A stretch of DNA of 40,571 nucleotides from Candidatus Doudnabacteria bacterium RIFCSPHIGHO2_02_FULL_42_25 (lineage in GTDB: Bacteria > Patescibacteriota > Doudnabacteria > UBA920 > O2-02-FULL-48-8): the NCBI GenBank assembly GCA_001777665.1, contig MFEQ01000006.1, positions 88,309 to 128,879 of the forward strand, written 5' to 3'. Each line of letters begins with the position of its first letter. Positions within the stretch are counted from its first letter, which is position 1. Below the pieces are notes generated by a model. It was not told the DNA's origin, ran no database searches, and was given only the letters and a program-made list of their open reading frames with translations. This document shows positions 22,358 to 38,873 of the stretch, in pieces. A program made the position numbers and the translations under genes.

Positions 22358-22380
22358 CAGCCTTAATGGGCTGTTTTTTT
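22358..22380 (+). terminator. Intrinsic terminator CAGCC-ttaatg-GGCTG + T7
   Basis: Stem followed by TTTTTTT; overlaps the convergent kinase stop codon. Confidence 0.8.
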
Positions 22381-22944
22381 GTAATCACTTATAGCTTTCT
22401 GAATATCTTTAGAAACATTAGGAATGGTTTGATCACCATTAATCATTCTTAACTTTTTAAGTGATCGGAAATACTTTACTGTTTTACTAACTTGATTCTT
22501 CGTATAATCAATTCGATTCCAAACACCCTGATCTTCAGATTGGAGACGGGCCCGAGCTTTAGTCCTCGCTAAAATTTCTTTGGTCGGAATTTGTATATAG
22601 ATCACAAAAAAATCCCGTCTTTTTTGCTTAAATAATTTAACGAGCAATTGAGCTTCTGGTTTCAGCCTGGGATTGCCGATAAATATTAAATCTTTGTTCT
22701 TAGGTGCATTAGATAGATTTGAAATCAAAAATTTTTTCATCAACACTACTGGTGTTGGGTGGCCCAAAGACATTGTTCGACGCAGCCAAGCGCCATCCGC
22801 ATTCTTTTTCTTGGCCATCGCTCGCCAATGCTTGCCCGATTCAACTGCTTTTAAAGAGTACTTTTTCTTTAAAATTTCCGCGTGCGTATCTTTCCCAGCC
22901 GTCGGATCGCCTAATAAAATCAAATCAAATCCGAGTTTTTTCAT
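22363..22944 (-). CDS. Adenylate-kinase-like P-loop nucleotide kinase, paralogue-like
   Basis: LILLGDPTAGKDTHAEILKKKYSLKAVESGKHWR; FIGNPRLKPEAQ; overall Adk-like layout. Confidence 0.75.
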   Translation of the reverse strand: MKKLGFDLILLGDPTAGKDTHAEILKKKYSLKAVESGKHWRAMAKKKNADGAWLRRTMSLGHPTPVVLMKKFLISNLSNAPKNKDLIFIGNPRLKPEAQLLVKLFKQKRRDFFVIYIQIPTKEILARTKARARLQSEDQGVWNRIDYTKNQVSKTVKYFRSLKKLRMINGDQTIPNVSKDIQKAISDYKKTAH

Positions 22945-22964
22945 AACAATTCCTCCGCAGCTGT

Positions 22965-23051
22965 CCCCCTCCCTGGAAGGGAGGGGTTAGGGGAGGGTCG
23001 GAGAGCTAACCCTCATGACTCCTCCCCCAGCCCCTCCTCAAAGAGGAGGGG
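22965..23051. repeat. Paired inverted copies of a CCCCTCC..GGAGGGG hairpin repeat
   Basis: CCCCTCCCTggaAGGGAGGGGTTAGGGGAGGG ... CTCCTCCCCCAGCCCCTCCTCaaaGAGGAGGGG. Confidence 0.8.
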
Positions 23052-23059
23052 TGAAACTG

Positions 23060-23632
23060 CTACTTAATTTTCTCCAAAATTTCTTGCTGGACTGCTTCTA
23101 TTGGTTGATCGCCATTGATGTGAACTAATAAGCCTTTCCTTTCGTAATAATCCTTCACAGGGGCAGTTTTAGTCATATATTCGTCAAATCGTGTTGTCAT
23201 TGCATTAATGTCATCATCCGCCCGTTTTTCTAGTTCTGATCGCAACAAAAGTCGTTTTACTAATTTCTCTCTATCAGCATCTAGAAATACTGCTAGAATA
23301 TTTTGAATATTATATTTTTTCATGAGTTCCTCTAAAAGCTGTACTTGCTCAATGGTTCGAGGGTAACCATCAAGTATGACTCCAGATGCATTCAAAATAC
23401 TTTCAAATTTTTTAATAAAAATCTGCCGTATAATTTCAATCGGAAGAATAATTCCCTGATCAATAATTGATTTAATTTTTTGGCCAAGTTCCGAATCTTG
23501 CTTGGCATATTCCCGAGACAATTCTCCAGTGCTAAAAAACTCGTAGCCTAATTTACTACTAAGGAGTTTGGTTTGAGTGCCTTTACCACTACCAGGCGCT
23601 CCCATAAACACAATAATTTTCTGTAGTCCCAT
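23060..23632 (-). CDS. adk: Adenylate kinase (short form)
   Basis: 190 aa; IVFMGAPGSGKGTQTKLLSSKLGYEFFSTGELSRE, ILDGYPRTIEQ. Confidence 0.93.
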   Translation of the reverse strand: MGLQKIIVFMGAPGSGKGTQTKLLSSKLGYEFFSTGELSREYAKQDSELGQKIKSIIDQGIILPIEIIRQIFIKKFESILNASGVILDGYPRTIEQVQLLEELMKKYNIQNILAVFLDADREKLVKRLLLRSELEKRADDDINAMTTRFDEYMTKTAPVKDYYERKGLLVHINGDQPIEAVQQEILEKIK

Positions 23633-23658
23633 GATGATATTATAGCGAAAATTGGTGC

Positions 23659-23697
23659 AAAAAAAAAGCCGAGGGCAGGACGCTGTGATCCCCGGCA
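23659..23697 (-). terminator. Intrinsic terminator of the Fis-like gene
   Basis: Minus: GCCGGGG...CCCtCGGC followed by TTTTTTTTT. Confidence 0.65.
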
Positions 23698-23701
23698 GGA
23701 A

Positions 23702-24004
23702 TTACGAAGCCTTTAAAAGCGCACTGGGCCGAAAGTCCCTGAAGGGTAATTTGACCCCGTGTTGTGTAACGAAATTCATAAAGCGCTTGTAGTCTCCAGG
23801 AGGCATGTTCAAAATCTCGACTACGCGCTTGTAGCACCCTCCGGTTTCTCGCAGCGCGATGGACACCAGCTCTCGCATCTGACCCCTGGTCATGTCTCGG
23901 TTCATGTACGTCGGATAGGCCGTCGTCCAGAAGCTCTTCTTTCCTTCTGTGATCTCCGAAAACACATCTTGCGCGACCTTTTCATCGTCTGAACGGTCAC
24001 TCAT
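23702..24004 (-). CDS. Stand-alone Fis-like HTH domain resembling the C-terminus of sigma-54-type regulators, 100 aa
   Basis: MSDRSDDEKVAQDVFSEIT...RGQMRELVSIALRETGGCYKRVVEILNMPPGDYKRFMNFVTQHGVKLPFRDFR; SD AAGGGGG 5 nt before ATG 24004. Confidence 0.7.
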   Translation of the reverse strand: MSDRSDDEKVAQDVFSEITEGKKSFWTTAYPTYMNRDMTRGQMRELVSIALRETGGCYKRVVEILNMPPGDYKRFMNFVTQHGVKLPFRDFRPSALLKAS

Positions 24005-24067
24005 ATGGTCCCCCTTGTAAGAACTATAGACTAACATAATTAAGAAAGTTAGCAAAGCAAAAAAAAG

Positions 24068-24094
24068 AGCTCGCCTTTCGGAGAGCTCTTTATA
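24068..24094. terminator. Near-symmetric intrinsic terminator after secY
   Basis: AGAGCTC-gcctttcgga-GAGCTCT with A-run/T-run flanks; T-run on minus follows secY. Confidence 0.85.
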
Positions 24095-36865: not shown

Positions 36866-36895
36866 TTAACAAAAACCCCATTTTGCGGGGGTTTA
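36866..36895 (-). terminator. Intrinsic-terminator-like hairpin in the tuf leader
   Basis: Minus: AAACCCC-cgcaaaat-GGGGTTTTTGTT. Confidence 0.6.
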
Positions 36896-36955
36896 GCCAA
36901 GTTCAGGATGACGCCTGACTCAAAAACCGCCAATAATTAATTTACATGCCTAACG

Positions 36956-36984
36956 ATTATAGAGGATTTGGGGCAGTTTGTAAA
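36956..36984 (-). promoter_or_regulatory. tuf promoter
   Basis: Minus TTTACA - 17 nt - TATAAT, about 140 nt upstream of tuf ATG. Confidence 0.75.
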
Positions 36985-37057
36985 GGGTTTAGGTGTCTGT
37001 GGATAAACTAGCTTAAATTCTATAAATCAGATATTCTTATCTTATTGGGAGGGTTTA

Positions 37058-37183
37058 ATGGCCGATGATGAAGGACAATGGTGGCTCGGAATTATTGCGA
37101 TTGCGGCGATCATCGCAACTGCTCTCATCGGGCGAGATTGGGTACATCAGCTGATCGCCGGTGTAGCCGCAATCAGCAACTAG
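37058..37183 (+). CDS. Island unit 1: small membrane protein, 41 aa
   Basis: GGGAGGG SD; MADDEGQWWLGIIAIAAIIATALIGRDWVHQLIAGVAAISN*. Confidence 0.65.
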   Translation: MADDEGQWWLGIIAIAAIIATALIGRDWVHQLIAGVAAISN

Positions 37184-37200
37184 AAAAATCGGGAGGAACT

Positions 37201-37263
37201 ATGAGAAAAACGGGAAAGAAAAAGCCCAAGAACGGCTGGCCGATCTTCGGCTTTGGAGAGTAA
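37201..37263 (+). CDS. Island unit 1: 20-aa basic peptide
   Basis: GGGAGG SD; MRKTGKKKPKNGWPIFGFGE*. Confidence 0.5.
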   Translation: MRKTGKKKPKNGWPIFGFGE

Positions 37264-37284
37264 ACCGCCAACTCTGTCCGCCAT

Positions 37285-37323
37285 CCACCAAAGCATGAAT
37301 CCACGCCTCGGTGGCTTTTTTTT
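37285..37323 (+). terminator. Island terminator T1
   Basis: CCACCaaagc...gcctcGGTGG + T-run. Confidence 0.8.
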
Positions 37324-37345
37324 ATATGCAAATAGGAGTAATCTT

Positions 37346-37372
37346 ATGACTAGGAGAGGACTATATTGCTAG
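37346..37372 (+). CDS. Possible 8-codon leader ORF
   Basis: GGAG-taatctt-ATG; MTRRGLYC*, overlapping the next ORF start. Confidence 0.3.
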   Translation: MTRRGLYC

Positions 37373-37503
37373 TGACACTGACCGAGCTTCTCAACAATCT
37401 GCCCAAATACTTCTGGCTCGTTGCAGGAATTGGAACAGTCAGCATCGTGGTGGTCTTAGGACTCATCGCGAAAGTCCATAAAGATTGGGACGGAATCCGT
37501 TAA
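37366..37503 (+). CDS. Island unit 2: small membrane protein, 45 aa, TTG start
   Basis: AGGAGAGGA SD; (M)LVTLTELLNNLPKYFWLVAGIGTVSIVVVLGLIAKVHKDWDGIR*. Confidence 0.6.
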   Translation: MLVTLTELLNNLPKYFWLVAGIGTVSIVVVLGLIAKVHKDWDGIR

Positions 37504-37527
37504 CAAAGTAACTTTAAGGAGGAAATC

Positions 37528-37848
37528 ATGGAGTGGATCTGGTTTGTGCTTGCTGTACTAACTGGCCTCTACGCTTTCGGGTACCACTGTGCGTTGCGTT
37601 TCGCCACTGGCACATGGGATTACTCGAGTGAGCTTCATGACTCGGCGATGCATTTGTGTTTGAATGCAGGTGCATTCCCCGGCTGCTTCCGAAGAATCGC
37701 TTCAGGGTGGGGCTCCTTCACCATCTTCTCTCTGATATTCCTATCCGAGGGTAGAATTGCAGCAGCACTTGCGATTGCTGCCTTCATGGCGATCCTCGTA
37801 GGAATCCATATCTATTTCAACCGGTTCAGACCGGAGCTCAATCTATAA
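37528..37848 (+). CDS. Island unit 2: multi-TM protein, 106 aa
   Basis: AAGGAGG SD; MEWIWFVLAVLTGLYAFGYHCALRF...AALAIAAFMAILVGIHIYFNRFRPELNL*. Confidence 0.75.
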   Translation: MEWIWFVLAVLTGLYAFGYHCALRFATGTWDYSSELHDSAMHLCLNAGAFPGCFRRIASGWGSFTIFSLIFLSEGRIAAALAIAAFMAILVGIHIYFNRFRPELNL

Positions 37849-37887
37849 CCACCAACACGTGATCAAACGCAGCGGTGGCTTTTTTTA
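37849..37887 (+). terminator. Island terminator T2
   Basis: CCACCaacacgtgatcaaacgcagcGGTGGC + T-run. Confidence 0.75.
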
Positions 37888-37904
37888 TTTCTAAACTGTA
37901 TGCT

Positions 37905-37910
37905 TATAAT
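37905..37910 (+). promoter_or_regulatory. -10 element of island unit 3
   Basis: TATAAT immediately after T2; weak T-rich -35. Confidence 0.5.
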
Positions 37911-37975
37911 GTAATCGGGAGGAATGAATAGTAGCTTAGACGCGATCTAACCGGCTAAACATTCAGGAGGTTGCT

Positions 37976-38044
37976 ATGTCGATTGGAAAAATGATCGCCG
38001 TCGCCCTGCTCATCTCGTCGTGGGTCTCTCTATTTGTCGGCTGA
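37976..38044 (+). CDS. Island unit 3: 22-aa hydrophobic peptide
   Basis: CAGGAGG SD; MSIGKMIAVALLISSWVSLFVG*. Confidence 0.55.
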   Translation: MSIGKMIAVALLISSWVSLFVG

Positions 38045-38070
38045 AGTCGACTCTCGACCACGCTCCCCCT

Positions 38071-38110
38071 CCACCAAAGCATTCCCCAAATGCCTAGGTG
38101 GCTTTTTTTA
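38071..38110 (+). terminator. Island terminator T3
   Basis: CCACCaaaGCATTccccaAATGCctaGGTGGC + T7. Confidence 0.85.
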
Positions 38111-38121
38111 TGGCAAATTGC

Positions 38122-38127
38122 TATAAT
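38122..38127 (+). promoter_or_regulatory. Extended -10 promoter of island unit 4
   Basis: TTGCTATAAT matches TGnTATAAT. Confidence 0.6.
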
Positions 38128-38156
38128 CCATTGAACTCGAATCCGGAGGGAATCAA

Positions 38157-38471
38157 ATGAAAGGAACTGTCAAAAGAAACCCTAAGACCGAGGTCAACTA
38201 CCCCAGCAAAACATACACTGCATCAAATGAAGTGAGAAGCGACTTGTATCGGGGCTATGGTTGTGGTGTCTTCAGTCGTTATACGTGGAGTTCGTACTTC
38301 CAAGGCACAGCAGATCTCACTACACGACGCGTAGTGGATAGCCACAAGAGTTGCTGCCAGTCTTGCAAAGCGTTCCACAAATTAGAGTCCAAAGTCACAC
38401 GAAAAAAAGCGAAAGGACATTCTCGACGTAGACGTGACCGTGCTGGCAAAGCAGTTCAAAAAAAACGATGA
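38157..38471 (+). CDS. Island unit 4: basic Cys-containing protein, 104 aa
   Basis: CGGAGGG SD; ...SHKSCCQSCKAFHKLESKVTRKKAKGHSRRRRDRAGKAVQKKR*. Confidence 0.7.
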   Translation: MKGTVKRNPKTEVNYPSKTYTASNEVRSDLYRGYGCGVFSRYTWSSYFQGTADLTTRRVVDSHKSCCQSCKAFHKLESKVTRKKAKGHSRRRRDRAGKAVQKKR

Positions 38472-38490
38472 CTAACCAGGAGGAAAACTA

Positions 38491-38757
38491 TTGGCACTTC
38501 GTCATGATTGGGGTCTACGAGCCCTTCGTGGTTACAAGCTTGCACAACCGTTCTATGAGGCTCATCCGGAAATCCTGATATCAGTTGGAGCACTTGCAAC
38601 TGTGTACTACAAGTATTTTCGGGACGCTGCTATCCAACGTGGTGATTTCGAGACCATGCTCGATCGGATTCGAAACAATCCTGAAGCGAACCAAGAACTT
38701 GAAACCCTTAATCAACGAAACGCTCAAGCGAGAACGAAAGCGAAGCGAAAACGGTAA
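38491..38757 (+). CDS. Island unit 4: 88-aa protein, TTG start
   Basis: AGGAGG SD; (M)ALRHDWGLRALRGYKLAQPFYEAHPEILISVGALATVYYKYFRDAAIQRGDFETMLDRIRNN... Confidence 0.7.
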   Translation: MALRHDWGLRALRGYKLAQPFYEAHPEILISVGALATVYYKYFRDAAIQRGDFETMLDRIRNNPEANQELETLNQRNAQARTKAKRKR

Positions 38758-38782
38758 GTCCCCGACTACCGTTCTTTTTTTA
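38750..38782 (+). terminator. Island terminator T4
   Basis: AACGGTA-agtccccgac-TACCGTT + TTTTTTT; stem includes the stop codon. Confidence 0.85.
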
Positions 38783-38848
38783 TTTTCAAATTAGTCGCAA
38801 AAACAATGTAATTACAGTATTTTTACGACTATTTATTTATAAAAGAAA

Positions 38849-38866
38849 AACCGCCTTTCGGCGGTC
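38849..38866 (-). terminator. fusA terminator
   Basis: Minus: GACCGCC-gaaa-GGCGGTTTTTCTTTT. Confidence 0.85.
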
Positions 38867-38873
38867 TAAAAAT

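Follow-up and report, generated by a model that had tools for sequence, protein, structure and literature searches.

A stand-alone protein with a predicted DNA-binding domain of the sigma-54-activator type between secY and adk in a Doudnabacteria genome

The secY-adk locus

The window, the whole stretch of 40,571 nucleotides that was analysed, contains an open reading frame (ORF) of 100 residues between secY and adk. It has an ATG start and lies on the same strand as both neighbours. The features of the locus are listed in Table 1. An earlier note on this DNA, made from the letters alone, had described a GC-richer ORF with the Shine-Dalgarno sequence AAGGGGG that splits the secY-adk pair, and its coordinates and composition were borne out.

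Table 1. Coordinates of genes and signals around the 100-residue gene (positions in the window)
Feature	Positions	Strand	Remarks
secY	25400-24105	-	
secY transcription terminator, hairpin and T run	24064..24091	-	-16.3 kcal/mol, z -3.96 against shuffles
CTAAC-N12-GTTAG inverted repeat, possible operator	24031..24052	.	upstream of the 100-residue gene, where a promoter would lie
TATAGT, possible -10 element of the 100-residue gene	24023..24028	-	by eye
Strong Shine-Dalgarno sequence, AAGGGGG	24010..24016	-	5 nt before the ATG of the 100-residue gene
100-residue stand-alone DNA-binding domain, sigma-54-activator C-terminal type (predicted)	23702..24004	-	
Terminator of the 100-residue gene, GCCGGGG...CCTCGGC and T9	23668..23696	-	GC-rich hairpin
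TATAAT of the presumed adk promoter	23639..23644	-	by eye
adk	23632-23060	-	

The gene had been placed between two terminators. The hairpin that follows secY stands up well (z -4.0 when rounded). The one that follows the gene itself has the correct form of a terminator, yet its z of -0.75 is no better than shuffles of the same GC-rich stretch. About 50 AT-rich bases lie between the secY terminator and the gene, and these hold the TATAGT and the Shine-Dalgarno sequence. The gene presumably has a promoter of its own; the promoter scan found no sigma-70 site above its threshold for this gene. When one mismatch was allowed, the inverted repeat had at least one match in 43 of 100 shuffles, and it is no evidence of function. 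An element resembling GCTATAAT was seen by eye before adk in most family members.

Downstream of secY, a pair of adenylate-kinase-like genes lies side by side, adk itself and another P-loop kinase (window 22363-23632). The same pair is present in most family members whose locus extends far enough. A GC-rich inverted repeat, CCCCTCCC.../...GGAGGGG, was seen by eye between the two kinase genes (window 22960-23060).

The composition of the ORF was compared with that of 48 neighbouring genes, with the comparison of codon usage confined to the window. The ORF has a GC content of 0.515, a GC3 of 0.65, and a codon-adaptation-type index of 0.571. The neighbours have a mean GC of 0.413 (maximum 0.457), a mean GC3 of 0.370±0.04 (maximum 0.477), and a mean index of 0.731 (minimum 0.681). 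The ORF is thus an outlier in GC3 and codon usage, outside the range of its neighbours. The protein has a pI of 9.2, and residues 36-100 have a pI of 10.3.

In most family members, adk begins within about 70-215 bp of secY and there is no apparent gene between them. Other ORFs occupy the gap in four further members: 234 residues in G001 (locus L019), 196 residues in G010 (L018; GC 0.64, GC3 0.81), 82 residues in G004 (L026), and msrB in G005 (L028). Pfam gave no significant match for the three unnamed ORFs. Because different ORFs are found there, the gap behaves as an insertion site, and it is read here as one that lies between two transcription units.

Identity of the domain

Scans of the 100-residue protein against Pfam and PHROGs gave no significant match, and neither did sequence searches of the PDB. 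The lack of a Pfam match agrees with the earlier view that no AAA+ or receiver domain is present. When 85,462 species genomes were scanned for close relatives, three came up, all of them from Acidobacteria MAGs. In all three, what matches is the C-terminus of a sigma-54 activator with an AAA+ domain, which PF00158 recognises at E 1e-60 or better. A profile search then placed the domain in 22 of 119 Acidobacteriota genomes, with up to 44% identity. In the cases that could be read, it is C-terminal and comes directly after the AAA+ domain and lid. This is the usual place of the Fis-type helix-turn-helix (HTH) in sigma-54 activators. One acidobacterial copy, L053, seemed to stand alone and was rejected as the end of a frame-broken activator.

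A profile made purely from acidobacterial domains, without the window gene, scores the window protein at 108 bits over residues 9-92. The ORF is therefore not a chance one, since 84 of its residues match that profile. An example of the alignment is SFWTTAYPTYMNRDMTRGQMRELVSIALRETGGCYKRVVEILNMPPGDYKRFMNFVTQHGVKLPFRDFR of the window protein against SFWTTAYPAFMSRDITRDDMRHIVRTGLEQTHGSYRLLLGLFNMAADDYKRFLGFLKQHDCHLPFQRFR of L037. The protein is homologous to the domain of the Acidobacteriota activators (Sigma54_activat, AAA_lid_14, and the domain) and of NCBIfam NF038230 from end to end, over about 85 residues. Of the five residues that hardly vary in the domain, it retains four: F25, W26, R36, and Y72. 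Unlike those activators, it stands alone, with no AAA+ domain, no GAFTGA loop, and no sigma-54 detected in its genome. NF038230, the GPMC system transcriptional regulator, aligns with the window protein over the final 90 positions of the model (E 4.7e-6). The short name of this model, Regu_Geo_Pelo, hints at Geobacter and Pelobacter, and so the domain probably occurs outside Acidobacteriota as well.

The N-terminal helices of the family carry a conserved motif, SFW...R(D/E)-T-(R/K), which is among its best conserved parts. It is a guess that these helices serve dimerisation. The AlphaFold2 model (pLDDT 86, pTM 0.77) has five main helices. These are predicted at residues 4-20, 25-34, and 40-53, followed by the HTH at 58-81 (58-64 and 69-81). 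In a Foldseek search of the PDB, matches 1 and 3 are the sigma-54-activator DNA-binding domains 2m8g and 3e7l, with non-significant E-values of 4-7 that carry little weight by themselves. The model of the second stand-alone copy (below) likewise gave only non-significant matches, with Escherichia coli Fis (1ety) at rank 7. No match was found between the window model and viral models in Foldseek.

The earlier note had seen a resemblance to the Fis-type end of activators in the C-terminus. The assignment to the DNA-binding end of an activator was right. The protein is not a member of HTH_8, however, and the resemblance extends to the whole protein rather than to its end. Scored with the single profile, it does not reach the HTH_8 cut-off (PF02954). 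A more distant relationship can be seen by profile-profile comparison. The HTH of the domain aligned by hhalign to an HTH_8 profile over 34 HTH columns with a score of 33.6 and an E-value, counted as one comparison, of 6e-6. That profile was made from 30 HTH_8 domains out of two of the same acidobacterial genomes. Controls scored 10.9 for the reversed HTH_8, at most 12.7 for 60 column shuffles, and 11.9 for an unrelated helical lid domain. The result did not change when both stand-alone copies were removed. The expected HTH likeness was thus found by profile search. The HTH of the domain is probably homologous to the Fis/NtrC-type HTH_8, although a generic HTH likeness is conceivable. The whole protein is a single five-helix domain of about 85 residues that is distinct from HTH_8 and, in those activators, stands where the Fis HTH would otherwise be. 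This activator domain is still without Pfam coverage.

The nearest parallel is Fis itself. Fis, the E. coli nucleoid protein (PF02954), is likewise a small stand-alone protein of about 100 residues, equivalent to the part of a sigma-54 activator that binds DNA, and its HTH is related to that of the window protein by the comparison above. Unlike Fis, the window domain is longer, with extra conserved N-terminal helices, and the residues of its recognition helix differ. Fis has an N-terminal beta-hairpin arm, whereas the monomer model of the window protein consists of helices and contains no beta strand. The window gene would have an origin separate from that of Fis. According to PMC7166090, which cites Morett and Bork (1998), Fis has been proposed to descend from NtrC through lateral transfer. 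The same paper describes NinH, a Fis mimic of phage lambda, as a small stand-alone protein with a Fis/NtrC-like HTH. NinH resembles the window protein in these respects, but no relative of the window protein was found in phages, plasmids, or viral contigs.

Distribution and the absence of detected sigma-54

Among 382 genomes of the phylum and 50 of the class, the domain was found only in the window genome (G000) and in G007, which belongs to another genus of the same family. Weak profile matches in other genomes of the phylum (L012-L015) are to other proteins, judging by their sequence. Another weak match, in G049, looks like a sigma-70 region-4 HTH and was rejected as a relative. Genomes beyond Acidobacteriota and this phylum were reached by the close-relative scan alone, and they may therefore hold further stand-alone copies or more fitting donors.

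The earlier note had called the gene an orphan. It does lack an AAA+ or receiver partner domain, but the copy in G007 is a second one that stands alone and occupies the same slot between secY and adk. The order there is that of the window: a terminator, the gene with the Shine-Dalgarno sequence GGAGG, a terminator, and an adk promoter. The two copies are 29% identical. In G007, the putative recognition helix has lost most of its basic residues (DYKRFMNF in the window, QADLLVSFL in G007), and the pI of this copy is 6.4. For this reason, DNA binding may not be conserved in that copy, which may warn of functional drift. The earlier note had named vertical conservation in the lineage as evidence against its reading; the domain is present in two of the 14 family genomes and missing from the other 12, and the gene is therefore dispensable in the lineage.

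The window genome is 98% complete, and its size of 849 kb fits the view of the earlier note that it belongs to the CPR (Patescibacteria). Sigma-54 (PF04552) was found in none of 61 genomes, the window genome and 60 relatives, in a search that was positive in four of 14 known genomes used as a control. This agrees with the earlier remark that CPR bacteria are not generally known to use sigma-54. The window genome has no HTH_8 and no strong match to a sigma-54 activator. What matches PF00158 there scores low (at most 35 bits) and lies in long frames, as expected of other AAA+ proteins. Since neither sigma-54 nor a strong activator match was found in the genome, the domain cannot work in its usual role. 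Nothing directly on point was found in the literature on sigma-54 in bacteria of this kind.

A different protein was observed in G026, a genome of the same order with no detected rpoN. It is a sigma-54-activator-like protein of 468 residues (L006, 610-2016, - strand; PF00158, E 2.4e-50). By eye, it appears to have two C-terminal Fis-type HTHs.

Possible origin and role

The protein can be explained as the DNA-binding domain of a sigma-54 activator, excised and gained by lateral transfer, that acts as a Fis-like DNA-binding protein, a reading that is given a slightly better than even chance. The gene encodes the complete C-terminal DNA-binding domain of an Acidobacteriota-type activator (bEBP). 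This domain would have been freed from the AAA+ ATPase, turned into a separate gene with its own Shine-Dalgarno sequence and terminator, acquired laterally, and inserted behind the secY terminator, in front of the adk promoter. The composition unlike that of the neighbours, the patchy distribution, and the best relatives in a distant phylum are those expected of a lateral gene, and they suggest the lateral origin and its direction. The protein would bind DNA as a small homodimer through its basic C-terminal HTH (residues 58-81). Activation of sigma-54 is impossible because both the ATPase and sigma-54 are missing. It may instead serve as a Fis-like local regulator, or as a nucleoid or architectural protein, on ordinary sigma-70 promoters. 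Dimerisation, DNA binding, and a regulatory role are predictions from sequence.

The copy in the same slot of G007 makes an older, vertical origin possible. The gene would then have been present in the ancestor of the family, mostly lost, fast-evolving, and left with its odd codon usage for other reasons. Slot, orientation, and anatomy are the same in both genomes. Neither copy has a well-supported sister in the domain tree, the window copy pairing weakly (88/86) with the decayed L053, and a tree in which the two copies are forced together is not rejected (p-AU 0.24). The SecY tree, on the other hand, divides the family into two well-supported halves (100/99), with G000 in one and G007 in the other, so that several losses would be needed. 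Each copy also scores higher against acidobacterial domains than against its fellow (243 and 144 versus 86), and the composition in G000 is foreign. This history is somewhat doubtful, and it concerns descent and is compatible with the proposed DNA-binding function. It is rather unlikely that the gene is a transient passenger, a young and unimportant foreign fragment in the insertion site that is intact because of its youth. Its foreign codon usage, its presence in two of 14 genomes, and the other ORFs in the gaps of four relatives would fit such a passenger. However, the domain is kept from end to end with a start codon, a strong Shine-Dalgarno sequence, and a terminator fitted to it, and the same domain in the same gap of a second genus, at 29% identity, is hard to reconcile with a useless gene.

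The domain could also have ceased to bind DNA and now act through contacts with another protein, perhaps by inhibiting it or serving as its partner. The changed recognition helix of G007 and the strong conservation of the N-terminal motif point in this direction. The window copy, though, retains DYKRF and its basic C-terminal half (pI 10.3), and there is no candidate partner in a genome with no other protein that bears the domain and no strong activator match. Such a role is considered improbable.

A shared origin with the tuf-fusA island (37-38.8 kb) had also been suggested. The island genes and the 100-residue gene are alike in GC richness and in Shine-Dalgarno strength, and that part of the suggestion held. 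The DNA that they have in common does not go beyond chance matches of 11 bases. A search of 60 genomes with one island protein, i2, brought up no convincing relative. A common origin is conceivable, composition and style being all that speaks for it. The island itself (window 36882-38873) is a row of very small ORFs on the + strand with strong Shine-Dalgarno sequences (GGGAGG, GGAGG). Look-alike terminators ending in GGTGGCTTTTTTT occur at about 37315, 37878, and 38101, as if it were built of repeated single-gene units.

A broader proposal is given a somewhat less than even chance. A Fis-like protein would have been born a second time, independently, by excision of an activator domain in the absence of sigma-54. 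This would possibly have happened twice at secY-adk, with an Acidobacteriota-like donor that was perhaps a partner or neighbour cell. Such an event would resemble the way in which Fis is proposed to have come from NtrC, but in reduced genomes and with the foreign composition still visible. The secY-adk gap, with a terminator on one side and the following promoter on the other, would be a site where genomes of this kind acquire single-gene units, and the case also draws attention to a DNA-binding domain of activators that has no Pfam entry so far.
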